Shown here: positions 43,307 through 55,844 of the stretch, in pieces
How positions within the stretch are numbered: position 1 is the stretch's first letter
Layout of the letters: each line of letters begins with the position of its first letter
Translations under genes and position numbers: made by a program
The notes under the pieces: generated by a model
Database searches by the model: none
The model's input: only the letters and a program-made list of their open reading frames with translations
Told to the model about the DNA's origin: nothing
DNA from: Asanoa hainanensis
GTDB taxonomy: Bacteria; Actinomycetota; Actinomycetes; Mycobacteriales; Micromonosporaceae
Length of the DNA stretch: 55,844 bases
Direction: 5' to 3'
Assembly: GCF_900188485.1 (NCBI RefSeq)
Contig: NZ_FZPH01000030.1
Coordinates: 1-55,844 of the forward strand

Positions 43307-45484
43307 TCAGCGGTGACCGGCCCCCACCGGCTCGCGGACCTCGGGCTCGACGAGCTCCGCGCGGAGCTTCTCGCCCTCGATGTCGACGTTGGGCAGCGCC
43401 CGGTCGAGCCAGCGCGGCAGCCACCAAGCGGCCCGACCAAGCAGCGACATCACGGCCGGGACGATGGTCATCCGGACGACGAACGCGTCGATCGCGACGC
43501 CGAGCGCCAACGCGAACCCGATCGACTTGATGATCGGGTCGTCGATCAGCACGAACCCCGCGAACACGCTGATCATGATCAGGGCCGCAGCCGTCACCAC
43601 CCTTGCTCCGTGACCCATGCCCGAGATCGTGGCGTGCTGGGCGTCGGCTCCGTGCACGTGGTCCTCGCGCATCCGGGACACGAGGAAGACCTCGTAGTCC
43701 ATCGCGAGTCCGAACAGGATGCCCACCAGCAGGATCGGCAGGAAGCTGATCAGCGGCCCGGGCGTACCGATGCCGAGCAGGTCGGCCAGATGCCCCTCCT
43801 GGAAGATCCAGACGGTGATGCCGAACGTGGCGCCGACGGTCAGCAGGAAACCGAGCGCGGCCTTGACCGGCACCAGGATCGACCGGAAGACCAGCATCAG
43901 CAGCAGCACCGACAGCCCGACGACGATCAGCAGATAGATCGGAAGCGCGTCGGCGAGCTTCTCCGAGACGTCGACACCCACGGCCGTCTGCCCGGTCACC
44001 GAGACGTCCGCGCCGCCGAGGCCGTGCGTCTTGGCCCGCACGTCGTGCACCAGCGTCTCGGTGGTCTCGGCGGTCGGCCCTTCCTTGGGGATGATGCCGA
44101 GCAGCGCGGTCCGCTGGTCGCCGCTCATCGTGGGCGGGGTGACCGCGACGAGGTTGGGCGTGCCATCCAGCGCCGGACCGACCTTGGCCAGCGCCGCGGC
44201 CGTCGTGTCGGCCGAGTCGCTGGAGACGACGAGCGTGATCCGGCCGTTGAAGCCGGGCCCGAAGCCCTCCGAGACCAGGTCGGCGGCGATGCGGGCGGGC
44301 GTGCCCTCCGGGCCGGCGCCGGCGTCCGGCAGCGCGAGCCGCATGTCGGCGGCGGGCAGCGCCAGGGCGCCGAGGCCGAGGATGCCGACCAGGATCACCG
44401 GGATGCGGCCGCGCCGCACCAGCCTCGCCCACCGGAAGCCGAAGCCCTCTTTGTGCTGCTGCGGTGCCGTGCCCCGCTGCTTCCGCGGCAGGATCTTGAG
44501 CCCGGCGAACCCGAGCAACGCGGGCAGCAGCGTGATCGCGACCAGCACGGCGACAGCCACGGTGCCGGCCGCGGCCAGACCCATCGCGCTGAGGAACGGG
44601 ATCCCCACGATGGCCAGACCGGCCAGCGCGATGACGACGGTGATGCCCGCGAAGACGACGGCCGAGCCGGCGGTGCCGACCGCACGGGCCGCCGCCTCCT
44701 CTGGGTCGACGCCCTCACCCAGGTTCTGGCGGTGCCTCGACGTGATGAACAGCGAATAGTCGATGCCGACCGCGAGACCGAGCATCAGCGCGAGGACCGG
44801 GGTCACGCTGGTGAGCTCGACGACGCTGCTGAGCGCGTACAGCCCGGCCATGCCCGCCGCGACGCCGATGAGCGCGTTGAGCATCGTCATACCGGCGGCC
44901 ACGAGCGAGCCGAAGGTCACCAACAGCACGACGAGCGCGATGGCGACGCCGATCGCCTCGGTGCCACCGACCTCGGGCGGAGAGTTCATCACCTCGCCGG
45001 CGTGCCCGACCCGCAGCCCGGCCTTCACGGCGGCGGCACCGGTCTCCTCGTACGCGGTGCGCTGCGCCTCAGTGAGCTCGTCGGCGCGTTCGGCGAACTG
45101 GACCTGGATCAGCGCGTACCGCGTGTCCTGGGAAATGGCCTTGCTCTGGAAGGGGTCAACCGCGCCGACGACGCCGGGCAGCTGCTTGGCCTCCTCCACC
45201 ACCTCGTGAACGGCCTGGGTAAGCGGCCCGTCGGTCAACGTGCGCCCCTCGGGCGCGGCGACAACGATGAGCCCGACGGCCCCGGCCCCTTCCGGAAACT
45301 CCTGCCGCAACGAGTCGATAGCCCGCTGCGACTCGGTCCCGGGCATGGTGAAGTTGCTGGACGTCGGCCCCTTGAAGGCAAGCGCCGCACCCCCGAGCGC
45401 GACAAGCAAAACCAGCCAGAGCAGGACAACCAGCCTGCGGCGACGGTACGAGGCGCGGCCGAGCCGATAGAGCAAGGTAGCCAT
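43307..45484 (-). CDS. MMPL-family RND transporter
   Basis: The 725-residue protein has twelve predicted helices in two MMPL halves. Each carries the conserved proton-relay motif: GLAVGIDYSLFITSRHRQ in the first half and FGLAMDYEVFLVSRMRED in the second. Two extracytoplasmic domains follow TM1 and TM7. It probably exports lipids, drugs or a secondary metabolite. It starts 2 bp after the TetR stop, so it is the target of that regulator. No biosynthetic gene for a specific cargo adjoins it. Confidence 0.92.
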   Translation of the reverse strand: MATLLYRLGRASYRRRRLVVLLWLVLLVALGGAALAFKGPTSSNFTMPGTESQRAIDSLRQEFPEGAGAVGLIVVAAPEGRTLTDGPLTQAVHEVVEEAKQLPGVVGAVDPFQSKAISQDTRYALIQVQFAERADELTEAQRTAYEETGAAAVKAGLRVGHAGEVMNSPPEVGGTEAIGVAIALVVLLVTFGSLVAAGMTMLNALIGVAAGMAGLYALSSVVELTSVTPVLALMLGLAVGIDYSLFITSRHRQNLGEGVDPEEAAARAVGTAGSAVVFAGITVVIALAGLAIVGIPFLSAMGLAAAGTVAVAVLVAITLLPALLGFAGLKILPRKQRGTAPQQHKEGFGFRWARLVRRGRIPVILVGILGLGALALPAADMRLALPDAGAGPEGTPARIAADLVSEGFGPGFNGRITLVVSSDSADTTAAALAKVGPALDGTPNLVAVTPPTMSGDQRTALLGIIPKEGPTAETTETLVHDVRAKTHGLGGADVSVTGQTAVGVDVSEKLADALPIYLLIVVGLSVLLLMLVFRSILVPVKAALGFLLTVGATFGITVWIFQEGHLADLLGIGTPGPLISFLPILLVGILFGLAMDYEVFLVSRMREDHVHGADAQHATISGMGHGARVVTAAALIMISVFAGFVLIDDPIIKSIGFALALGVAIDAFVVRMTIVPAVMSLLGRAAWWLPRWLDRALPNVDIEGEKLRAELVEPEVREPVGAGHR

Positions 45485-45486
45485 TG

Positions 45487-46026
45487 TCAGTCCTTCCCGG
45501 GGATAAGAGCGCGACGAGCAACGGCAACGAGCGCGGGCCGCAGCTCCACCTCGTCGCGCTTGTCGTCGATGACCACAGCGGCGATGCCGGCCAGCAAAAC
45601 CTTGGCCGCGGTCTGGTCGTTGGGATCGGCCGAACGCCCGGCAAACCCAGCCACGAGCGCGTCGGTCAGTTCACGCACGCGCACGAACGCAGGCTCCTGA
45701 AGAAACTGCGGAGTGACGTCGTAGATGAGCGCAACCTCGCGCCGATAACGAAGAACAAGGTCGATGAACCCCCCGATGGCAGCGTCTCGGACCCCTTTGT
45801 CATCGACGCCGGCGAGGCGAGCGACAAGGTCGATCAGCGACTGCCTGGCGGGCTCGACGAGGGCAAGCAGGATCGCGTCCTTGTGGGCGAAGTGGTAGAG
45901 CAGGGTGGCCTTGGAACACCCCACCTCAGCAGCGATGTCATGCAGCGAGGTGCCCTTGAAGCCGTACCGGGTGAACAGCTCCCCGGCGACCCGCAAGATC
46001 TCGTCACGCGTCCGGATGCGAACCAC
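45487..46026 (-). CDS. TetR-family regulator of the MMPL exporter
   Basis: The 179-residue protein has the TetR HTH (TRDEILRVAGELFTRYGF, then SLHDIAAEVGCSKATLLYHFAHKD) and a helical ligand domain. Two adjacent GTG codons (46032 and 46026) are candidate starts; 46026 has better spacing to GGGAG. Two palindromic operators lie 15 bp upstream, so it should repress its own operon with the MMPL gene and perhaps the divergent gene at 46163. Confidence 0.88.
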   Translation of the reverse strand: MVRIRTRDEILRVAGELFTRYGFKGTSLHDIAAEVGCSKATLLYHFAHKDAILLALVEPARQSLIDLVARLAGVDDKGVRDAAIGGFIDLVLRYRREVALIYDVTPQFLQEPAFVRVRELTDALVAGFAGRSADPNDQTAAKVLLAGIAAVVIDDKRDEVELRPALVAVARRALIPGKD

Positions 46027-46040
46027 CCACACATTCTCCC

Positions 46041-46073
46041 TGACCGCTCGGTCAGAACCTGACCGAGCGGTCA
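46041..46073. promoter_or_regulatory. pair of 14-bp TetR operators
   Basis: TGACCG-CT-CGGTCA (46041-46054) and TGACCG-AG-CGGTCA (46060-46073) are reverse complements of each other and each nearly self-symmetric. Centres are 19 bp apart, so two dimers could bind with close helical phasing. They lie between the TetR start and the divergent gene at 46163. Confidence 0.8.
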
Positions 46074-46162
46074 GTTCGGTGGCCCAGGTCACACGTGTGA
46101 GTGACACCCATCGCTGATCAACATCTATCGCCGTCAACACGCTGGGCGGCGATAATCACTGG

Positions 46163-46702
46163 ATGACGGCGGTCGCGCACCCCGAGTCCGGGCTCCAAAA
46201 GGCCACGTTGACGTCCGACGACCTGGCGGAAACGCCGTGGGACTACTGCCGAATCCACGCGCTAGCCATCACCGACGACGAGGGCCCACCCGACGACCTA
46301 ACCCCTGAAGAGTTCCAGGAACAGAACGACCTAGACCCAGAGGCCCCGTCGGCCCTAGAACTCCACCTGGACCTGGACTACATCGTGAGCCGCTTCGACC
46401 CAGGCCCGATGCGAGACATCCGCTACTGGGTAGCCCCGGCAACCCTGACCTTCAGCAACGTCTGGAACATCTCCGGCGACCTACGGTCGGTATGCCTGCC
46501 GCTGGAGCTAAAGAGCCTGCGCCGAGAGCCCGCCTCACCCGACGGCGAGCCCCGCTGGCATCTCGAGGGCCGCGACGCGGACCTACGCTTCCAGGCGTCG
46601 CGCTACACCCTGCACCTGCGCAAACCCCCGCGCTACGGCAACAGGGTGCTTCGAATGGCCGAACGCGGCGGCATCAGCTTCGCCCCACACCCGTTCATCT
46701 GA
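46163..46702 (+). CDS. conserved-looking hypothetical protein
   Basis: The 179-residue acidic protein shows no recognised domain. It has tryptophan-rich spots (TPWDYCRIHAL, RYWVAPATLTF, NVWNISGDL) and a basic C-terminus. There is no signal peptide or membrane segment. It is transcribed away from the TetR-MMPL operon and could share the paired operators. CTA codons and A/T third bases are commoner than in neighbours. Function unknown. Confidence 0.6.
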   Translation: MTAVAHPESGLQKATLTSDDLAETPWDYCRIHALAITDDEGPPDDLTPEEFQEQNDLDPEAPSALELHLDLDYIVSRFDPGPMRDIRYWVAPATLTFSNVWNISGDLRSVCLPLELKSLRREPASPDGEPRWHLEGRDADLRFQASRYTLHLRKPPRYGNRVLRMAERGGISFAPHPFI

Positions 46703-46719
46703 CGGTCCGCGCCAGTTTC

Positions 46720-46733
46720 TGACCGACTGGTCA
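46720..46733. promoter_or_regulatory. third TGACC-N4-GGTCA dyad
   Basis: TGACCGACTGGTCA matches the operator at 46060 at 12 of 14 positions. It lies just after the stop of the hypothetical gene and 3' of the PPC gene, not in an obvious promoter. Confidence 0.45.
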
Positions 46734-46916
46734 GCTCCCCATAATCTCGTCGATCTCCGCCAAGCCCGACCCAGCGCGTTGTAGGTGCTCAGGCCCGGCA
46801 GCGCACAGCTATCCGTTCACCCCCGGACCTTCAGGTGAGTCGCGTCCGCTCATCGCCCATGAAAGTCCATCTAGCTGCGCCGGCTCGGTACATCGGGATC
46901 CGCTCAGGTGCTGGGC

Positions 46917-47249
46917 CTACATGGGTATGACGTAGGCGTTGACGAAGAAGTTGTTTACGTTGCCCCAGTGGAGGTGACCGGCCCTCGCTTCGTCGCCTTG
47001 TCGGCCCAGTACGACGTGGATGTGGACGGCTCCGTCGCGGACCTCACCGGTTCCGGTCAGTTCCATGGGCTCGGTGTACTCGGTGACGATGTCCTTTGCG
47101 TAGTCGTCTGCCGCCATGGTGGAGATCGCGCACCCCTCGAGGGCTCCGATCATTGACACGATGGCGCCGTTGCGGACGCCTTGCTTGGCGAGCTCGTCCG
47201 TCAGGGTCCGGATGACTTCTTGGCCGGCTCCGACCTCTATCAGGATCAT
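46917..47249 (-). CDS. PPC-domain (DUF296) DNA-binding-type protein
   Basis: The 110-residue protein has the PPC/DUF296 fold: an early EVGAGQEVIRTLTDELAKQG, AIVSMIGALEGCAIS, and HIHVVLGRQGDEARAGHLHW. In bacteria this domain occurs alone and may bind metal via its histidines (HIH, HLH). It starts in a 4-bp overlap with the XRE regulator gene, so both are co-translated. It may modulate the regulator. A 214-bp gap downstream holds no gene. Confidence 0.82.
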   Translation of the reverse strand: MILIEVGAGQEVIRTLTDELAKQGVRNGAIVSMIGALEGCAISTMAADDYAKDIVTEYTEPMELTGTGEVRDGAVHIHVVLGRQGDEARAGHLHWGNVNNFFVNAYVIPM

Positions 47250-48292
47250 CGGCGTCTCTCGTTCGTCGTGGTGATCGGGTTGGAGCCTGCTAGGAGGGCG
47301 GCCATGGTTCGGAGATTCTCGCGGGACGCCTCTGCTCGGAGGGCGTCCGCGACCGCCGCCTTCACGGGTTCGGCGGCTGCTCCGCCGGTCTGGTGGAGCA
47401 GCACCGCTGAGCACCACCGCGCGGCCGCGTCACGCGGATTGCGTAACTCGCCGGCAAGCCGGACTGCCGAGTCGTGAGGCGGCGCTTCCGTCCCACCGGC
47501 GAGCTTCGCGGCGGCATCCCAAGGGATGGCCAGGACTCGACTTGCGACGGCGGTCACGTAGAGCGTGCGCGCTGCGGAGTCGACCCGCAGGGCCGCGATT
47601 ACCCGGTCTGCGATTTCAGGAGCCGCGACCTTCGCCAGAATGCCGGCCGCGTTGACCCGAAGGACATCGGTACCGCCGTCGGTCATCCACCGGTTGAGGG
47701 CGGCGACGGCTCGTGGGTCGTGTTCGACGAATTCGCGGATCACGAGGTCGGTCGCGTGGGTTGTCTGGGCCGTTTCGAGGGTGGCGGAAGATCCCGAGGC
47801 GACGCCGGCGAAGACGCGCCGCCCGATGTGGAAGTCGATGAGCCCGGGATGCGGGAACCGAATGAGCCCGTCCGCGGTCCGCACGACCCTGCGGCGGCGT
47901 ACGATCAGTGATACGCCCGGCCGCCGGTCCGGCGGGATCTCCGTCTCGTGCAGGTCGCGCCCGGCCGTCCAGGTCTCCCAGGCGAGCCAGTCCGCGCACT
48001 CGTCCGCGTCTACGGCTGTCGCCGGGCCGGCTGCGACCGCGCCGGCCACTGTAGCGCCGGCGAGGGCCAGAAAGTCTTTACGCCTCACGGCGCTAAAGGT
48101 AGGCGATGCGCCCTCGCCCAGGGCCTCGTTCACCGCTCGTTGGTAGAGCGCGACCGTGGCCGGTGTGACGGCACGCTCGCCGTTTTCGATCCGGGACAGA
48201 TGGCTCGCGGACACCTCACCAATGGCCCCCACCTGGGAAAGCGTGAGATTCGCTGCCCGGCGTGCGTGCCTCAGCTGCTGGCCGTTGTCCAT
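47246..48292 (-). CDS. XRE-family regulator with hydrophobic linker and HEAT-like repeats
   Basis: The 348-residue protein has an N-terminal HTH (QLRHARRAANLTLSQVGAIG, then SASHLSRIENGE). A short hydrophobic stretch follows an Arg pair (RRKDFLALAGATVAGAVAAG, about 70-90), as seen in many actinomycete XRE regulators. The C-terminal half has helical repeats (ALNRWMTDGGTDVLRVNAAG, KVAAPEIADRVIAALR) like HEAT repeats. The start is ATG 48292 after GGAAGG. It is divergent from the lanthipeptide precursor gene and the best candidate cluster regulator. Confidence 0.82.
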   Translation of the reverse strand: MDNGQQLRHARRAANLTLSQVGAIGEVSASHLSRIENGERAVTPATVALYQRAVNEALGEGASPTFSAVRRKDFLALAGATVAGAVAAGPATAVDADECADWLAWETWTAGRDLHETEIPPDRRPGVSLIVRRRRVVRTADGLIRFPHPGLIDFHIGRRVFAGVASGSSATLETAQTTHATDLVIREFVEHDPRAVAALNRWMTDGGTDVLRVNAAGILAKVAAPEIADRVIAALRVDSAARTLYVTAVASRVLAIPWDAAAKLAGGTEAPPHDSAVRLAGELRNPRDAAARWCSAVLLHQTGGAAAEPVKAAVADALRAEASRENLRTMAALLAGSNPITTTNERRR

Positions 48293-48879
48293 GCCTTCCG
48301 TCCCCTTGCGGCAACTTTCTTGCGGCACACGTTGCTGCTGACTGCGGGTGACGCAAACGTCACCCTCGAAGGTAGGACCACGGGGCGGGCGCTATGCAGC
48401 GTCGCAGGGTGAGTTGATCGAGACGTGCGGCGCCACGGCCCCGTCTCGTGGTCTGTCCAGCTCACACGGTAGGCCAGTGCCCGGGACGTGTCGATACGCC
48501 CCGCGTGCGCCATCAGACCCGGGGAGACGGAAATGGCGGTTTGTCTAGTGCGTCGCGGACCACGCATTGTTGCGGCCAGGTGCAGCTGGAGCCAGGGACG
48601 CCCCGCTGCCACGTCCGCGTCGTTCGAATGTCGTGGTTGAGCTCGGATGCCGGCCCGAATCGTCAGGACGCTGGCCATGCGATGGGCAGGTGCGCGTGCG
48701 GATCAGGTGTGGCTGTCTCGAGTGATAGCAGGAATCCAAGCCAGTTCGTGCCTATGGCAGACGCCGACAAGACCCCTTCGCTCGATTCGTTTCGCGTCTT
48801 GGTCGCGGCACATCGTCATCGCGCCGGTAGCTGCGGGGGCTACCCGCCCGTCACCTGGAATCCCCTTTGGAGGGAAGGC
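48293..48879. other. 587-bp regulatory region before the lanthipeptide precursor
   Basis: This lies between the XRE gene and the precursor gene. It holds direct repeats of CTTGCGGCA at 48305-48313 and 48319-48327 (14-bp period) just upstream of the XRE start, a likely operator or promoter. An open frame runs into the precursor gene from about 48448, but it has no good start, whereas 48880 has a strong ribosome-binding site. No other gene is supported. GC content looks lower here than in the flanks. Confidence 0.5.
48305..48327. promoter_or_regulatory. direct repeat CTTGCGGCA x2 upstream of XRE gene
   Basis: Two copies 14 bp apart, 12-35 bp upstream of the ATG at 48292. The 10-mer CTTGCGGCAA also occurs at 42189 before the GH87 gene. 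Repeated half-sites suit an XRE or other dimeric regulator. No test is possible here. Confidence 0.35.
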
Positions 48880-49014
48880 ATGAACGACTACCTCGACGAC
48901 GTCAGTGACCCGTTCGAGCTCGACGTGCAGATCGTCACGGAAGGTCCTGCGACGGCAGCGTTGCTGTCCAGCACGGACGACGGCTGCGACACGGTGAAGG
49001 GCAGCGACTGCTAG
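48880..49014 (+). CDS. FxLD-family lanthipeptide precursor peptide
   Basis: The 44-residue peptide has a leader of about 22 residues carrying the FxLD motif (F12-E-L-D15 in DPFELDVQIV). The probable core from about residue 23 is ATAALLSSTDDGCDTVKGSD with a final Cys. The core offers Ser30, Ser31, Thr32, Thr38 and Ser42 for dehydration and Cys36 and Cys44 for two (methyl)lanthionine rings. Asp33/Asp34 beside Gly, Asp37 and Asp43 are possible targets of the isoaspartate-type methyltransferase encoded downstream. GGAGGGAAGG gives a very strong ribosome-binding site. It is encoded 89 bp before the LanB gene. Confidence 0.9.
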   Translation: MNDYLDDVSDPFELDVQIVTEGPATAALLSSTDDGCDTVKGSDC

Positions 49015-49103
49015 TCCCACCTACGTGCCGGCCCGCTCGGCGACCCGAACCCGATCGGGCCGGCACATGCCCCGAACGCCGACGATTAGGGAGGTGCCCG
49101 ACT

Positions 49104-52100
49104 ATGAGCGCCACCGCATTTCGAAGGGTCGATGCCGCGACGATCCGCATCTCCGCTCATCGATGGCCAACTTCTCTTCCGGTCGCTTGGCCGCCAAGCG
49201 GTGATGCCACAGCGATCCTCAGCTGGCTTCGGGCGACGTGGTCGACGGTCGGGCTGGCCGATGCCGTCTGGACCGCCAGCCCGCAGTTCGCCGCCCGGGT
49301 GGAGGCGGTTTGCTCGGGCGCGGAGCAGGACACAGATCGCATCTGGCGGGTCGTGTTGACGTTGGCCCGATACGTCGTGCGAGCTCAGCGTCGGGCGACA
49401 CCGTTCGGACTGTTCTCCGGCGTATCTGCCGTACGTTTCGGCACGGCCGCGGTAGTCGCGTCCGCGGGGGTGGCGGCTACGCGGGTACGCCCGGACGCAG
49501 CCTGGCTCGCATCGCTGGTTCACCAACTTGAGGCCGATCCGGAGGGTCGCCGCCGCCTGCGAGTTCAGTCGAACAACCTGGCCGTTGTGCAGGGATCTCG
49601 CGTCATCGTGCAACGACGGCCGCACGCGTCGGTGCGGGGAGAGGGGACCTGCTCGATTAGGTACACGCCAGCGGTGCGGTTTGCGCTTTCTTCGGCCGCA
49701 GCGCCGATGCTGTGGTCGGAGCTGGTCGACACGATCGCCGCAGCCTTTCCCGAGTCTCCCCATGAGTCCGCGCAGACGCTGGTCTCCGATCTCGTCGACC
49801 AGGGCGTGTTGGTCTCCGCACTGCGACCGCCGTCGACCTGTACGGACCCCATCGGTCATGTCCTCGGCCACCTCGACAGCTTTCAGACCGGTGACGGCAA
49901 CAGCCAGCGGCCAGTCCTGCTGAGATCGCGCGCCGCGCATGGCGAGGCAGGGGCCGCGCGGCCGGCCGAGCTGCGTGCCCTTGCCGCGCAGATGCGCGGC
50001 TTGGCAAGAGCTGACCAACCTCTTGCGGTCGATCTGCGGCTCCCCGATCGCGTCACGCTTCCCGAACAGGTAGCCGCCGACATCGTGGTGGCAACAGAGA
50101 TCCTGCGACGGTTGACGCCGGACCCGACAGGTCGGCCGCAGTGGCGCGCCTACCGCGCCCGGTTCGTCGACCGCTACGGGACGGCCGCTGTCGTCCCCCT
50201 CGCGGAGGTGGTCGATCCCGTCACCGGTCTGGGGTTCCCGACGCACTTTCATTCACCGACCGACCAGGCCGTGCCATTGGTGTCGGCTCGAGACGAGCGG
50301 TTGTTGGCGCTGGCACAGCAGGCGTCGATCGACGGCGTACGTGAGGTCGTACTCGATGACGCGGCCGTGCTGGCACTGGCCGGCTCCGACCACCTCGGTC
50401 ACCGCGTCAGCTCACACGTTGATGTCTCGGCCGAGATACGGGCGGTCTCGTTAGGCGACCTCTCAGCCGGGCGTTACACCGTCGCGGTGACCGGGATGGG
50501 CCGGTCGGCGCTGGCGACGTCAGGGCGGTTTCTTGATCTGCTGCCTTCGGTGGACCAGGAAAGGATGAGCCGGGAGTTCGCCGCCCTGCCGGTGGCCGTC
50601 GAGGGAGCAATGCCAGCGCAGGTGAGCTTTCCTCCGCACAACCTCCACTCGCAGAACGTTCTGCGTGCCAGGCAGGTACTCCCGTGGCTGATCTCGCTCG
50701 GCGAATATCGCCCTCCGGCGGTGAACGCGATCGACCTCGACGATCTCGGGGTCGCGGCCGGCTGCGATCGGCTCGTTCTGGTGTCGATGTCACGCCGGCG
50801 GGTGGTCGAACCCACCGTGGCTCATGCCGCCGCGGTGCACACGATGCCCTTGATCGCCCGGCTTCTTGTCGAGCTGCCACGGGCCACTGATGCGCGGCTC
50901 GTCCCGTTCGCCTGGGGAACAGCGACGTGCTTGCCGTTTCTGCCCGCGTTGCGGTACGGACGAGTCCTGCTCGCCGCTGCGCGATGGCTCGTCGATCCGG
51001 CCGTCCTGCCAAACGTCAAGGTCGCAGACGCCGAATGGTCGGCTGCGTTCGATGCGCTACGCCACAGGCTCGGCCTGCCGGGGTGGGTTCAGGTCGGTCA
51101 CGGCGATCAGCGGCTTCGACTCAACCTGGATCACGCGATGGACCGGGCACTCCTGCGCGCCCACCTGCACAACAGCCCGGCAGCCGTCACGATCACGGAG
51201 GCGGCAGGCCGGGACGACTTCGGCTGGCTGTCCGGCCGGGCACACGAGATCGTGCTGCCTGTCGCCTCCACCGCCGCGCCCGTCCCAGCGCCAGCCGCAG
51301 TGATCGCACGGTCGACGTGGCCGCCGCCTATGCCGGCCCAGCCGATCATGCCAGGATCTTGCGGCTTGGTGTCGGCGTCACTCGCCTGCGATCCCGCCAC
51401 GATGGACACGGTGCTGATACGAGGGGTGCCGGCACTGCTCGCCGAGTGGGTCGAGCCGCCATCGTGGTGGATCGTGCGTCTGCGACATCCAGTCCCGCAT
51501 CTGCGGCTTCGCCTGCACACCGACGACTACGGTGACACCGCTCGCAAGCTCGGTCGGTGGGCCGCCGTGCTTCGACAGCAGGGGCTTGTCGGAGACCTCA
51601 CGCTGGACACCTATCAACCGGAGTCCGGACGGTACGGCGACGAGCCGGCGCTGACGGCCGCCCACGAGTTGTTCGCCGCCGACTCCCGCGCGGCCCTGGC
51701 TCAGCTGAGCACTACGGTCGACCGCCGCGTCGACAGGCAGGCGCTGACCGCCGTCAGCATGGTCGACCTGGCCTCCGCGATGCTCGGGAGCTGCGACAGC
51801 GGCTACGAATGGCTGGTCGCTGAACGAGAGCAGCCAGGACTGCCGCCCATGGACAGAGCGGTCCTGCGCCAGGTCATCAACCTCCATCGAGGCGCCGTGC
51901 CACCGCCAGTCCGCCAAGCGTGGCAGGAACGGGCCGCGGCGGCCGCCCGCTACGCGGACGCGCTCGCCGCCTCCGGCGGGGCTGTTTCCGCGGACTCGGT
52001 GCTCGCCTCGCTGCTCCACCTGCACCACATCCGTGTTTTCGGCCCGACCGGCCCCGCCGAGCAGTCGACCCACCGGCTCGCGCGCCAGGTCGCGTTGGCT

Positions 52101-52142
52101 GCATCGCGCTCACGCCGCGCAGCTGAGGCGGCGTTCGGATGA
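49104..52142 (+). CDS. full-length class I lanthipeptide dehydratase (LanB)
   Basis: The 1012-residue protein has an N-terminal glutamylation domain (about 30-700; YVVRAQRRATPFGLFSGVSA at 90-109, then VQRRPH and RFVDRYG-like YRARFVDRYGTAAVVPLAEV). A C-terminal elimination domain (about 768-1010) contains WIVRLRHPVPHLRLRLH, LDTYQPESGRYG and AHELFAADSRAAL. LanB uses glutamyl-tRNA to glutamylate core Ser/Thr, then removes glutamate to leave dehydro residues. It overlaps the LanC gene by 4 bp. Third-base GC looks lower than in neighbours, hinting at transfer. Confidence 0.93.
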   Translation: MSATAFRRVDAATIRISAHRWPTSLPVAWPPSGDATAILSWLRATWSTVGLADAVWTASPQFAARVEAVCSGAEQDTDRIWRVVLTLARYVVRAQRRATPFGLFSGVSAVRFGTAAVVASAGVAATRVRPDAAWLASLVHQLEADPEGRRRLRVQSNNLAVVQGSRVIVQRRPHASVRGEGTCSIRYTPAVRFALSSAAAPMLWSELVDTIAAAFPESPHESAQTLVSDLVDQGVLVSALRPPSTCTDPIGHVLGHLDSFQTGDGNSQRPVLLRSRAAHGEAGAARPAELRALAAQMRGLARADQPLAVDLRLPDRVTLPEQVAADIVVATEILRRLTPDPTGRPQWRAYRARFVDRYGTAAVVPLAEVVDPVTGLGFPTHFHSPTDQAVPLVSARDERLLALAQQASIDGVREVVLDDAAVLALAGSDHLGHRVSSHVDVSAEIRAVSLGDLSAGRYTVAVTGMGRSALATSGRFLDLLPSVDQERMSREFAALPVAVEGAMPAQVSFPPHNLHSQNVLRARQVLPWLISLGEYRPPAVNAIDLDDLGVAAGCDRLVLVSMSRRRVVEPTVAHAAAVHTMPLIARLLVELPRATDARLVPFAWGTATCLPFLPALRYGRVLLAAARWLVDPAVLPNVKVADAEWSAAFDALRHRLGLPGWVQVGHGDQRLRLNLDHAMDRALLRAHLHNSPAAVTITEAAGRDDFGWLSGRAHEIVLPVASTAAPVPAPAAVIARSTWPPPMPAQPIMPGSCGLVSASLACDPATMDTVLIRGVPALLAEWVEPPSWWIVRLRHPVPHLRLRLHTDDYGDTARKLGRWAAVLRQQGLVGDLTLDTYQPESGRYGDEPALTAAHELFAADSRAALAQLSTTVDRRVDRQALTAVSMVDLASAMLGSCDSGYEWLVAEREQPGLPPMDRAVLRQVINLHRGAVPPPVRQAWQERAAAAARYADALAASGGAVSADSVLASLLHLHHIRVFGPTGPAEQSTHRLARQVALAASRSRRAAEAAFG

Positions 52143-53407
52143 CCAACGCGCTATCTGATCCCGCACTCGATCGTGCGGCCGGCAGCCTGGCCGCCCGCAT
52201 CGCGGACGAGTTGGCCCAGCCGCCCGTACCGGACTTCAGGCCGGATGACTACGGCCCACGAAGTAGTCGCTGGTATGCCCAATCACTGTCCAAAGGGGCC
52301 GCCGGGGTCGCCATTCTGCACGGCGTACGCGCACAGACGGGCCTCGGAGAATGGAAGCCGGTCCACCAGTGGCTGCGACAAGCCACGGCCGACCAGCTGA
52401 ACAACACCGGCGGAGCCGGGCTCTGGTTTGGTGTCCCCGCCGTCGCCCACGCTTTGACGATCGCCATGCCGCACGCCCACCCGCGCACTCTCGACATCCT
52501 TGACCACGCCGTCGCCGACCTGGTGCAGCGCCGGCTCAAGGACGCCGCGGTTCGTCTCGAGCAACAGGCACGGCCGTCGCTGGCGGAGTTCGACCTCGTA
52601 CGCGGGCTGACCGGGCTGGGTGCCCACCTGCTGCGCCGCAACCGCGACGGACACCTCTTGCGCCAGGTGCTGACCTACCTTGTGAGACTCGCCGAACCCG
52701 TCGCTGCCGCCGACGAAACTGGCGCAGCCGCCCCCGGCTGGTGGACCACCGACCCAGCCGACCGCGAAGCCGCTGTGCCCGGCGGGCACGCCAACCTCGG
52801 GATGGCACACGGCATCGCCGGCCCTCTGGCGTTGCTGGCCCTCACAGCGCGCCAGAACATCACCGTCCCTGGACACCTCGACGCGATCGGCCGCATCTGT
52901 ACCTGGCTGGACACCTGGCGGCAGGTCGGCCCGACTGGACCATGGTGGCCAGAGAAGCTCACCGCCGCTGAACTTCACGCCGGACAACCAGCCGCGCCCG
53001 GACCGAACCGACCCTCCTGGTGCTACGGGACCCCGGGCCTGGCCCGCGCCCAGCAGCTCGCCGCGATCGCCCTCGACGACCACCACCGGCAACGGGCGGC
53101 AGAGGACGCCCTCATCCACTCTCTGAACGACCCCGAGCAAACCGGCCGCGTCATCGATCCGTCGCTGTGCCACGGCTGGGCAGGGATCGCGGCCACGACC
53201 TGGTACGCCGCCGCCGACGCCCGCTCCACCGGCCTCGCCAGCGCCCTGCCACTGATCGTGCGGCGGCTGATCCAGCACGCCGACACCACCGCCCCGGCGC
53301 GATCCGGCCTCATCGAAGGAAACGCGGGAGCGGCCCTCACCCTCCACACCATCGCCACCGGCACCGGCACCGACATCCGCTGGGCCACCAGCCTACTGAT
53401 CAACTAG
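52139..53407 (+). CDS. LanC-type lanthionine cyclase
   Basis: The 422-residue cyclase has the alpha-toroid repeats (LSKGAAGVAILHGV, FDLVRGLTGLGAHLL, NLGMAHGIAGPLALL, WCYGTPGLARAQQLA) and all three zinc ligands: Cys295 in SWCYGTPG, Cys344 and His345 in SLCHGWAG. It adds core cysteines to dehydro residues to form the rings. ATGA overlap with LanB, and a 9-bp gap to the methyltransferase gene. Confidence 0.93.
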   Translation: MTNALSDPALDRAAGSLAARIADELAQPPVPDFRPDDYGPRSSRWYAQSLSKGAAGVAILHGVRAQTGLGEWKPVHQWLRQATADQLNNTGGAGLWFGVPAVAHALTIAMPHAHPRTLDILDHAVADLVQRRLKDAAVRLEQQARPSLAEFDLVRGLTGLGAHLLRRNRDGHLLRQVLTYLVRLAEPVAAADETGAAAPGWWTTDPADREAAVPGGHANLGMAHGIAGPLALLALTARQNITVPGHLDAIGRICTWLDTWRQVGPTGPWWPEKLTAAELHAGQPAAPGPNRPSWCYGTPGLARAQQLAAIALDDHHRQRAAEDALIHSLNDPEQTGRVIDPSLCHGWAGIAATTWYAAADARSTGLASALPLIVRRLIQHADTTAPARSGLIEGNAGAALTLHTIATGTGTDIRWATSLLIN

Positions 53408-53416
53408 GAGACCGCC

Positions 53417-55531
53417 GTGGACACCGACCACGAGCCCGACATCGAGCAACCACCTGACCCGCAGCCGACCAGCCGGTGGCGTCAGATCAACCTCACCTTC
53501 GCCGACTGGCAGACCGCCGAGCACTACGGGACGACACGACTGGCCCCGACCCTGTCAGCGGCCGAAGACACCGGCGCCGTCGTCGCGTACTGGTTCATCC
53601 GCAAAAACAACACGTGGCGGCTGCGATTGCTACCCGGCGATCGGCTCGGAACCATCTATGCCGTCCTGGCCGCGATCATGAACGACGAACGCATCTGTCG
53701 CGTCGCCGAACCCCTCTACCGGCCCGAGATCCACGCCTTCGGCGGCACCGAGGCCATGACCGTCGCCCACACCCTCTTCCACGCCGACAGCCGCCACCTG
53801 CTCCACCACCTCGCGACCGCCGGCGGCAGCCACCGCCGCGAACTCAGCATCCTGCTCGCCACCGGCCTCATGCGCGCCGCCGGACTCGACTTCTACGAAC
53901 AGGGCGACGTCTGGCACCACGTCGCCATACACCGTCGACCGCCGAAGGCAGCCCAGCCGTCACTCCGCCTCATTGCCGCCGTCAAGCGACTGATCACCGC
54001 CACCGACCACGCACCCCATAGCCCGCTGAGCACAAACCCTGACTGGCCGAACGCGTACCAGCACGCGGGCCACGAGCTGGCGCACCTTGACCGCCACAGC
54101 GCCCTGACCCGCGATCTGCGCGGTGTCCTCACCCAGCACACGCTGTTTCTGCACAACCGACTCGGTATCAACGCTGCTCATACCGGTCTGCTCGCCGCAG
54201 CGGCCGCGAACGTCATCTTCGAGCAACGCCACCCGGCAGCAGAGCGCCGCGCCATCGACGACCTGGCGAGCACCGACAGTAGGGTAGAAGCGATGAAAAC
54301 GGTCAACACAACCCCGGAAGCGTCCGCTCCCGCTGAGCTCCGCGAACGCCTGATCACGACACTCAAACAAGCCGGCCACCTCGGCTTGCCGGCCGTCGAA
54401 GACGCATTCCGCACCGTGCCTCGCGAGCAGTTCCTCCCTGGGGTCGAGCTGGAAACCGTCTACACCCGGCGCCAGATCGTGACCAAGCGAGACGCCACGG
54501 GAGCGGCGCTGTCATCTGCGTCGAGCCCCAGCCTCGTCGCGGACATGCTCGAACAACTCGCCCCACGCCCCGGTGACCGCATCCTCGAAATCGGCGCCGC
54601 CACCGGCATCAACGCCGCCCTCCTCGCCCACCTGACCGGCCCGAACGGCACGGTCGTCACCATCGAACTCGACCAGGACCTCGCCGACGGGGCCGCCGCA
54701 GGCCTGGACCGTGCCGGCTACTCCACCGTCGAGGTGGTGTGCGGAGACGGCGCCCTCGGCCACCCGGAACACGCGCCCTACGACCGGATCATCGTCACCG
54801 CCGGAGCCTGGGACATCAGCGCCGAATGGTGGAACCAGCTCACACCCAGCGGCCGCATCGTCGTACCCCTGCGCCTGCACGAAAGCGGACTGACCCGCTG
54901 CATCGCCTTCGACCGCAAGGGCACCGACCAACTCTTCAGCGCTACATCACCGCTGGTCTGCGGATTCGTCCCCATGCGCGGCACCACCGAGCACGCTGAT
55001 CATCACGTTCGGCTCGACACCGAGGTAGTCCTCAAACTCGACGCCGCCGACAAACCCGATCGCGAAGCCCTCGGCCAGGCGCTCACGCATCCGCCACACA
55101 AGCGCTGGTCCGGCATCACCGTCACGGACGCCGACTCCATCCACCACCTCGACTTGTGGCTACTCGTCCACACCACCACAGCATTCGGCCGCCTCGGCGT
55201 GAGTGACAACGCCCGATCCAGCGGCCTGGTCACCCCCGCCTACAGGTGGGCCGGTGCCGCTCTATATCAGGGGGGCACCATCGCTTACCCAGCCTTCAAC
55301 ACCACGAACAACGACCACCACGAACTCGGCGTAATCGCCCACGGACCCGACGCCGAGCCACTCGCCGCCTACCTGACCGAACTGCTCGAGCGATGGGACG
55401 CACAAGGGCGACCCGACCAGCCCACTATCACCGCCCATCGAACCGCGATGGCACCCACCCAAACCGCCCACACTGGCACCCGACGGCACACCATCAGCCG
55501 TCCGGACACCACACTCACGGTCGTCTTCTGA
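53417..55531 (+). CDS. FxLD-system methyltransferase fused to LanB-C-like domain
   Basis: The 704-residue fusion has an N-terminal thiopeptide-type/SpaB-C-like domain (about 18-285: WRQINLTFADWQTAEHYG, VVAYWFIRKNNTWRLRL, HTLFHADSRHLLHHL). This is the same type as the C-terminal domain of the neighbouring LanB. A protein-L-isoaspartate O-methyltransferase-like domain follows (about 312-700: FRTVPREQFLPG, then DRILEIGAATGINAALLAHL as SAM motif I at about 387, PYDRIIVTAGAWDI). Related lanthipeptide methyltransferases methylate Asp in the cyclised peptide, giving succinimide then isoaspartate. The start is GTG 53417 after AGGAGA. Confidence 0.92.
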   Translation: MDTDHEPDIEQPPDPQPTSRWRQINLTFADWQTAEHYGTTRLAPTLSAAEDTGAVVAYWFIRKNNTWRLRLLPGDRLGTIYAVLAAIMNDERICRVAEPLYRPEIHAFGGTEAMTVAHTLFHADSRHLLHHLATAGGSHRRELSILLATGLMRAAGLDFYEQGDVWHHVAIHRRPPKAAQPSLRLIAAVKRLITATDHAPHSPLSTNPDWPNAYQHAGHELAHLDRHSALTRDLRGVLTQHTLFLHNRLGINAAHTGLLAAAAANVIFEQRHPAAERRAIDDLASTDSRVEAMKTVNTTPEASAPAELRERLITTLKQAGHLGLPAVEDAFRTVPREQFLPGVELETVYTRRQIVTKRDATGAALSSASSPSLVADMLEQLAPRPGDRILEIGAATGINAALLAHLTGPNGTVVTIELDQDLADGAAAGLDRAGYSTVEVVCGDGALGHPEHAPYDRIIVTAGAWDISAEWWNQLTPSGRIVVPLRLHESGLTRCIAFDRKGTDQLFSATSPLVCGFVPMRGTTEHADHHVRLDTEVVLKLDAADKPDREALGQALTHPPHKRWSGITVTDADSIHHLDLWLLVHTTTAFGRLGVSDNARSSGLVTPAYRWAGAALYQGGTIAYPAFNTTNNDHHELGVIAHGPDAEPLAAYLTELLERWDAQGRPDQPTITAHRTAMAPTQTAHTGTRRHTISRPDTTLTVVF

Positions 55532-55576
55532 CTCGATGCCCGGGAGCGAGCGCTTGGGCCGCTGAGCACCCGCGAA

Positions 55577-55844
55577 GTGGCGTAGTTTTCGCCTGGCTCG
55601 ATGGCTGGGCGCGGCCAACAGCCTGGCTGCCAACGACGTTCGCCCATTGGATGTTGCGATCCTCGCCTGACGCGATGGCCGGGCGCAGCGATTCGTTGTT
55701 CGTGGCGTCGATGACCTGGTTGCGATCCTCGCCCGACCCGATGGCCGTGCGCAGCTCGGTGACGGTGCCGGTGAGAGCGACGTCCAGGCCGTCGTTGCGA
55801 TCCTCGCCCGGCTCGGCGGCCGGGCGCAGCGGTACCCCGTTCGG
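55577..55844 (-). CRISPR. degenerate repeat-spacer array, probable CRISPR trailer end (runs off window)
   Basis: Three 37-bp units (55653-55689, 55719-55755, 55794-55830) begin GTTGCGATCCTCGCC and end GGCGCAGC. A more degenerate unit is at 55577-55615, with a relic near 55531-55552. Spacers are 37, 29 and 38 bp and unrelated. Read on the minus strand the repeat ends GAGGATCGCAAC, like the 3' ends of many CRISPR repeats, and its middle is palindromic (CGCCCGGC/GCCGGGCG in the best copy). Decay increases to the left, as at a trailer end. No cas gene is in view. The units also lie in one open minus frame (GEDRN repeats), so a repetitive coding region is the alternative. Confidence 0.5.

Follow-up and report, generated by a model that had tools for sequence, protein, structure and literature searches.

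An FxLD class I lanthipeptide cluster of Asanoa hainanensis with a two-cysteine precursor and a putative aspartate-editing methyltransferase

Actinobacterial class I lanthipeptide clusters that encode a methyltransferase of the isoaspartate type (PIMT) are known from several accounts, of which the passages cited here bear on the present locus. Walker 2020 (PMC7268733) described families I 1-4, in which an Asp of the core is conserved and a PF01135 methyltransferase is encoded, reported that elimination-domain proteins are often fused to PF01135 methyltransferases and placed clusters having such methyltransferases among the commonest actinobacterial class I clusters. Lee 2023 (PMC10787088) counted 1305 such lanthipeptide clusters and found the TxDGC motif, which is also given in a 2026 review (PMC13001092), in most of them. 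Marsh 2010 (PMC3091789) listed clusters of LanA, LanB and LanC genes from Micromonospora and Salinispora and stated that actinobacterial clusters typically encode a methyltransferase as well. In the Streptomyces olivaceus system (OlvA, OlvB, OlvC and OlvSA, the "lanthimiditide" system), as described in the review, OlvSA acts only on peptide already cyclized by LanB and LanC and converts an Asp in the loop of a methyllanthionine (MeLan) ring to an aspartimide and then to 70-80% isoaspartate (isoAsp). The modified OlvA core was solved by NMR and its mature form is given as unknown (PMC7268733, PMC13001092). According to the review, whether and in what way aspartimide formation in such peptides serves a biological function is still to be discovered (PMC13001092). 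The lanthipeptide recognition motif is named FxLD in PMC12710340, and the FxLD family is represented by the curated models TIGR04363 (precursor) and TIGR04364 (methyltransferase).

The window (the whole stretch of A. hainanensis DNA analyzed, 55,844 nucleotides) contains an intact four-gene cluster of this known and widespread actinobacterial family. Given the accounts of Walker 2020, the 2026 review, Lee 2023 and Marsh 2010, we regard the cluster as a new instance of a known system: the methyltransferase, its fusion and the Asp-to-isoAsp chemistry are published, and as a kind the cluster is ordinary. A single cluster of this sort is unsurprising and its interest is modest, arising from comparison with relatives. 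With its four genes the system is compact and complete, and natural variants exist at the supposed editing site; the natural Asp/Asn swaps, an apparently dead domain and a lineage-dependent fifth gene provide comparisons bearing on the edited residue and the roles of the parts. The precursor region contains the following features.

48869-48874, + strand: Shine-Dalgarno-like GGAGGG of the precursor gene (direct sequence reading)
48880-49014, + strand: FxLD precursor LanA, 44 aa plus stop; TIGR04363 48.5 bits
48913-48924, + strand: FELD leader motif (residues 12-15), the presumed binding site of the LanB leader-recognition domain

The initial annotation had described a 44-residue precursor with an F-E-L-D motif and a core of two Cys, four Asp and five Ser/Thr. 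This description was accurate (residues 28-44 contain 2 Cys, 4 Asp, 3 Ser and 2 Thr), and the search of the peptide against FxLD family models that it had proposed gave 48.5 bits to TIGR04363 against a cut-off of 30. In the whole 8.6-Mb genome 48880-49014 was the only TIGR04363 match above cut-off. None of 14 control genomes gave a match above cut-off; below it (E up to 10) weak matches were seen in 8 of the 14. A search of solved structures with the precursor as query returned no matches. Another Shine-Dalgarno-like stretch, GGGAGGT, is read at 49089-49095. Elsewhere in this genome (G000) there are two further LanB-like open frames of 874 aa, on contigs C12 (about 106-108 kb) and C27 (about 118-120 kb).

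The genes that follow the precursor encode the modification enzymes.

49104-52142, + strand: LanB dehydratase, 1012 aa, with glutamylation and elimination domains; PF04738 (Lant_dehydr_N) 629 bits, PF14028 125 bits
52139-53407, + strand: LanC cyclase, 422 aa; PF05147 (LANC_like) 121 bits
53417-55531, + strand: fusion protein of a second elimination-like domain and an FxLD methyltransferase, 704 aa
53477-54214, + strand: second SpaB_C/thiopep_ocin-like domain, fusion residues 21-266; TIGR03891 164 bits
54332-55522, + strand: isoaspartate-type O-methyltransferase part with C-terminal extension, residues 306-702; TIGR04364 483 bits

All four genes are open and on the + strand, the LanC start and LanB stop overlap by 4 nt, and active-site residues are conserved. 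In alignments of 17 sequences LanB residues H799, R801, R803, E840, R843, H972 and H974 were invariant, as were LanC residues H224, C295 and C344, whereas LanC H345 was present in at least 90%; LanC was also aligned to NisC. A two-domain LanB, a separate LanC and an adjoining LanA make this a class I lanthipeptide cluster, and the third enzyme exceeds the curated cut-off for FxLD system methyltransferases (483 versus 320 bits). Both the FxLD class I assignment and the single-strand arrangement of LanB, LanC and an isoaspartate-type methyltransferase, with an overlap or short gaps, had thus been called correctly; the methyltransferase type was also right, and its fusion to a second elimination-like domain had been missed. 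The TDDGC core together with a PCMT domain (137.5 bits) places the cluster by gene and core content with the PIMT-modified lanthipeptides (lanthimiditides). With the Olv system it shares the class I enzymes and a PIMT-type methyltransferase, which there acts on a MeLan-loop Asp, and with Walker families I 1-4 the actinobacterial origin, core Asp and PF01135 methyltransferase; both systems were compared by their published descriptions. An AlphaFold2 model of the fusion protein (mean pLDDT 80.9, pTM 0.57) matched PIMT 1dl5 in Foldseek (E 4e-20). An Rfam scan of 44000-55844 gave no family at gathering score, and a tRNA search of the window found none.

Very probably the cluster is an intact FxLD class I cluster whose product has two MeLan rings and is edited at Asp34. 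LanB would bind the FELD leader, glutamylate T32 and T38 (perhaps S30, S31 or S42) and eliminate glutamate, and LanC would then form two MeLan rings, joining T32 to C36 and T38 to C44. Asp34 in ring A would next be methylated by the fused methyltransferase, and the methyl ester would give an aspartimide and, by hydrolysis, mainly isoaspartate. The second elimination-like domain, dead for glutamate elimination, would probably hold the substrate, and leader removal and export would fall to genes outside the cluster. The product should be a small peptide that has two rings and a single rearranged aspartate; the initial annotation had likewise proposed a two-ring peptide with Asp backbone editing, and this is still the best reading. 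The computed monoisotopic mass of the full 44-mer is 4621.02 unmodified; two dehydrations would lower it to 4585.00, and the doubly dehydrated peptide would have 4599.01 as methyl ester and 4566.99 with an aspartimide, a value equal to that for three dehydrations. The predicted features of the core are as follows.

48973-48987, + strand: predicted MeLan ring A, T32-D33-D34-G35-C36 (TxDGC motif reported for such cores; T32, D33 and C36 are forced by our search pattern, given below)
48979-48981, + strand: predicted edited Asp34, within predicted ring A (TxDGC motif)
48991-49011, + strand: predicted MeLan ring B, T38 to C44 (T38 in 34 of 34 precursor ends, at a position left free by the pattern)

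The proposal is supported by the FxLD cut-offs passed, the conserved LanB and LanC sites, the OlvSA precedent and the TxDGC motif, and further by the constant T38, by the methyltransferase found in 21 of 21 D34 loci and by the NisB Arg precedent for a dead domain. Counted against it are the occurrence of Asn34 in 10 of the 34 precursor ends, with the methyltransferase kept in 8 of 8 of those having LanB, by which Asp33 may be the target instead, an unremarkable core pN/pS, the Arg kept in 3 of 72 second domains, the decay of locus L073 and the failure to find the fifth gene in the genus.

Across all loci collected, 34 distinct precursor ends fit the pattern TD(D/N)(G/N)C-x7-C-stop, which fixes T32, D33, C36 and C44, restricts positions 34 and 35 and leaves positions 37-43 unconstrained. 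Several of the two-Cys members were found by profiles built from earlier members, which biases the set towards likeness. These ends form, by sequence comparison, a recurrent two-Cys subclass of FxLD precursors. The window precursor shares with the FxLD family both curated models and an adjoining LanB and LanC; it differs from the other FxLD precursors compared, which have mostly three or four Cys, in having two, the second of which is the last residue. As 33 other distinct ends share its pattern, the core is not the unusual combination that the initial annotation took it to be, although its reading of the family and enzymes was sound. The string DDGCDT was absent from the open-licence full texts searched (text, not figures).

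Residue 34 was Asp in 24 ends and Asn in 10. In a table of 31 two-Cys loci, which leaves out the decayed locus L073, the methyltransferase was present in 21/21 D34 loci with LanB and in 8/8 N34 loci with LanB; at L215, near a contig end, it was partial and LanC was not found. At two N34 loci, L201 (G513) and L218 (G544), the approximately 12 kb examined showed none of the three enzyme genes (LanB, LanC, methyltransferase); in L201 this stretch contains runs of N. TDNGC two-Cys FxLD precursors were recorded at L183-L186, L205, L208-L211 and L213, with LanB and methyltransferase nearby in 8 of the 10.

Asn at residue 34 in relatives that retain the methyltransferase makes Asp33 a second candidate for the edited residue. 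The alternative in which the cluster works as proposed and the residue edited in the two-Cys subclass is Asp33 seems to us doubtful, but it survives better than any other. In addition to the Asn34 precursors and their methyltransferases, it is favored by the 2026 review, which in the passage cited reports a conserved Asp followed by Asn or Asp at n+1 in some precursors (PMC13001092). However, the multi-Cys precursors compared vary at position 33 (TSDGC, TEDGC, TNDGC, TGDTC and others) and have Asp at 34, a result partly forced by the Ser/Thr-x-Asp-x-Cys-type search, and the presence of D33 in 34 of 34 ends is forced by the two-Cys pattern. Moreover, Asn34-Gly35 itself can yield a succinimide, so Asn34 need not shift the target. 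For the N34 loci, either the target would be Asp33 or deamidation at Asn34-Gly35 would give the same succinimide, with the methyltransferase recycling isoAsp. The latter route is chemically natural because canonical PIMTs act on isoAsp derived from Asn deamidation (PMC13001092, in the part cited). Asp34 remains our preferred target in the window.

In a LanB tree the N34 and D34 sequences lie largely apart. Three changes at residue 34 are needed, of which well-supported branches force only one, and the idea of repeated independent Asn34 origins was therefore dropped. A special selective constraint on the core was also dropped, as pN/pS was alike in core (0.52) and leader (0.50). No account of the Asn34 variants or of the fifth gene described next was found in the open-licence literature searched, where coverage was partial and of text rather than figures.

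A gene encoding a TPR-like protein lies directly downstream of the fused methyltransferase in 59 of the 64 loci for which 1 kb or more of the downstream region was available (L074, L075, L078, L080, L098, L102 and others), and the same gene follows an unfused methyltransferase in 5/36 loci. The loci had been selected for similarity to the fusion protein of the window and are a non-random sample from which the overlapping stretches L093-L097 were dropped; the window itself was excluded, as only 313 nt follow its methyltransferase gene. Same-species records obtained by two routes (e.g. L091 and L099) were left uncollapsed in this count and in that of the second domains given below. The fifth protein (about 340-390 aa in three examined) matched no Pfam or NCBIfam family above cut-off, and was confidently modeled as a helical repeat (pLDDT 94.6) with weak TPR-type PDB matches, the best at E 0.007. 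A profile of 38 fifth proteins found none in the six genomes of the window's genus and one match in each of two control genomes. Judged by gene content, the four-gene form of the window is a reduced version of the cluster found in most of the relatives examined.

The FxLD system is common in the window's taxonomic family: among 200 sampled genomes, 98 had a TIGR04364 methyltransferase and 68 a TIGR04363 precursor above cut-off. Within the genus, the two-Cys precursor profile matched in three of the six genomes (the window, L072 and L073). L072 has the same four genes, whose proteins are 75-79% identical to those of the window. L073 (G018:C51:26000-37000), from a sister species, has an intact precursor and a LanB shortened to about 832 codons, which would end inside the elimination domain; LanC and methyltransferase were not found in the 11 kb, and the best TIGR04364 match in that genome had E 3.9e-43 versus 2.8e-145 for the window. 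The FxLD trait thus decays in this genus, L073 being left with the precursor and a truncated LanB. A BTAD/NB-ARC regulator gene adjoins the L073 locus on the same strand.

These genus data could be taken to mean that the cluster is intact in sequence and no product is made any longer in the window's genus, given that the fifth gene was found in none of the six genomes, the precursor is present in only half of them and L073 has decayed. We consider this unlikely: the four window genes are open and retain their active-site residues, L072 preserves all four, and L217 and L219 are likewise without the fifth gene in the stretches examined. A functional cluster giving the edited two-ring product is the reading we retain.

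The second elimination-like domain of the fusion protein resembles the LanB C-terminal domain in profile comparison (E 7e-10). Foldseek of the fusion model also matched MadB 9g05 (E 4e-9), MibB and NisB and, more weakly, the [4+2] aza-cyclase 8ejy (E 7e-6); these matches were assigned by us to the first domain of the fusion, as the match table gave no residue ranges. The fold is thus shared with the NisB, MibB and MadB elimination domains. The R-x-R pair is kept (R68, R70), and R70, P103 and E104 were invariant among 17 aligned sequences. Unlike those elimination domains, however, the second domain has Ala at the Arg of the E-x-x-R motif: in the profile alignment LanB R843 corresponds to Ala107, and H972 and H974 to Leu243 and Leu245. 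The position matching R843 was Ala in 66, Arg in 3, Thr in 2 and Val in 1 of the 72 second domains scored (81 were collected with near-duplicates kept and L093-L097 dropped, and nine were unscored by the motif). LanB had Arg there in all 38 proteins scored with a looser motif, which left 44 of 82 unscored; the conservation of LanB catalytic residues given above rests on the 17 aligned sequences rather than on this scoring. At L200, L202 and L219 separate open frames encode the elimination-like domain and the methyltransferase.

From the E-x-x-R motif we take LanB R843 to be the putative counterpart of NisB R826, and H972 or H974 presumably that of NisB H961. The NisB substitutions R786A, R826A and H961A gave glutamate transfer with elimination absent (PMC4979651, in the part cited). 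By these residues (NisB R786, R826 and H961) the second domain does not qualify as an active LanB elimination domain. Given the NisB Arg mutant data and the Ala at the matching position, it is predicted to be dead for glutamate elimination, and it probably serves as a substrate holder. That it instead catalyzes another reaction, as do the related [4+2] cyclases, we think rather improbable, and slightly more so than loss of the product. The 8ejy match and the invariant R70, P103 and E104 speak for such an activity, and Walker 2020, in the part cited, raises a possible further modification (PMC7268733). However, no more than five dehydroamino acids could form in the core, and the four genes show no sign of azole enzymes. 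Substrate holding remains the role we favor.

At the unconstrained core positions of the 34 precursor ends, T38 was present in all, D37 and D43 each in 33, and position 42 was Ser in 17 (including the window), Gly in 16 and Thr in one. As T38 is constant and Ser42 dispensable, ring B is most likely T38-C44. A second ring S42-C44, or a free C44, would accord with Ser42 in half of the ends but is the least probable of the alternatives given Gly or Thr at position 42 in the other 17 and the constant T38.

The comparisons also admit a broader proposal that we offer tentatively, giving it no more credence than editing at Asp33. The two-Cys FxLD peptides may be a distinct conserved product line selected for a succinimide or isoAsp at residue 34, which would arise by Asp34 methylation in the window. 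In 10 relatives (8 with the enzymes in view) Asn34-Gly35 would instead deamidate spontaneously, and the methyltransferase would be kept to recycle isoAsp. The dead second domain would act as substrate holder, and the TPR-like fifth protein would have been lost from the window's genus.

The gap between lanA and lanB contains an inverted repeat.

49025-49066, + strand: stem-loop in the lanA-lanB gap, 11-bp perfect arms 49025-49035 and 49056-49066

This 89-nt gap folds with a z-score of -3.29, and none of 200 shuffles (made for the window gap only) folds as well. In 12 of the 14 loci tested the lanA-lanB gap contains perfectly matched inverted arms of at least 10 bp, whereas in L077 and L078 no perfect inverted repeat there reaches 8 bp. 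Stem-loops of other lantibiotic operons provide an analogy for control of the precursor/enzyme ratio. By this analogy the element is likely an attenuator or mRNA stabilizer that would set the ratio of precursor to enzymes.

At the other end of the cluster, a CRISPR-like array begins about 120 bp past the methyltransferase gene, occupies 55653-55844 and continues in L092 (contig positions 55700-59545), a stretch containing runs of N. Its repeats are about 37 bp (GTTGCGATCCTCGCCCGG...GGCCGGGCGCAG) with a spacing mostly of 72-79 bp, and those closest to the lanthipeptide cluster are degenerate.
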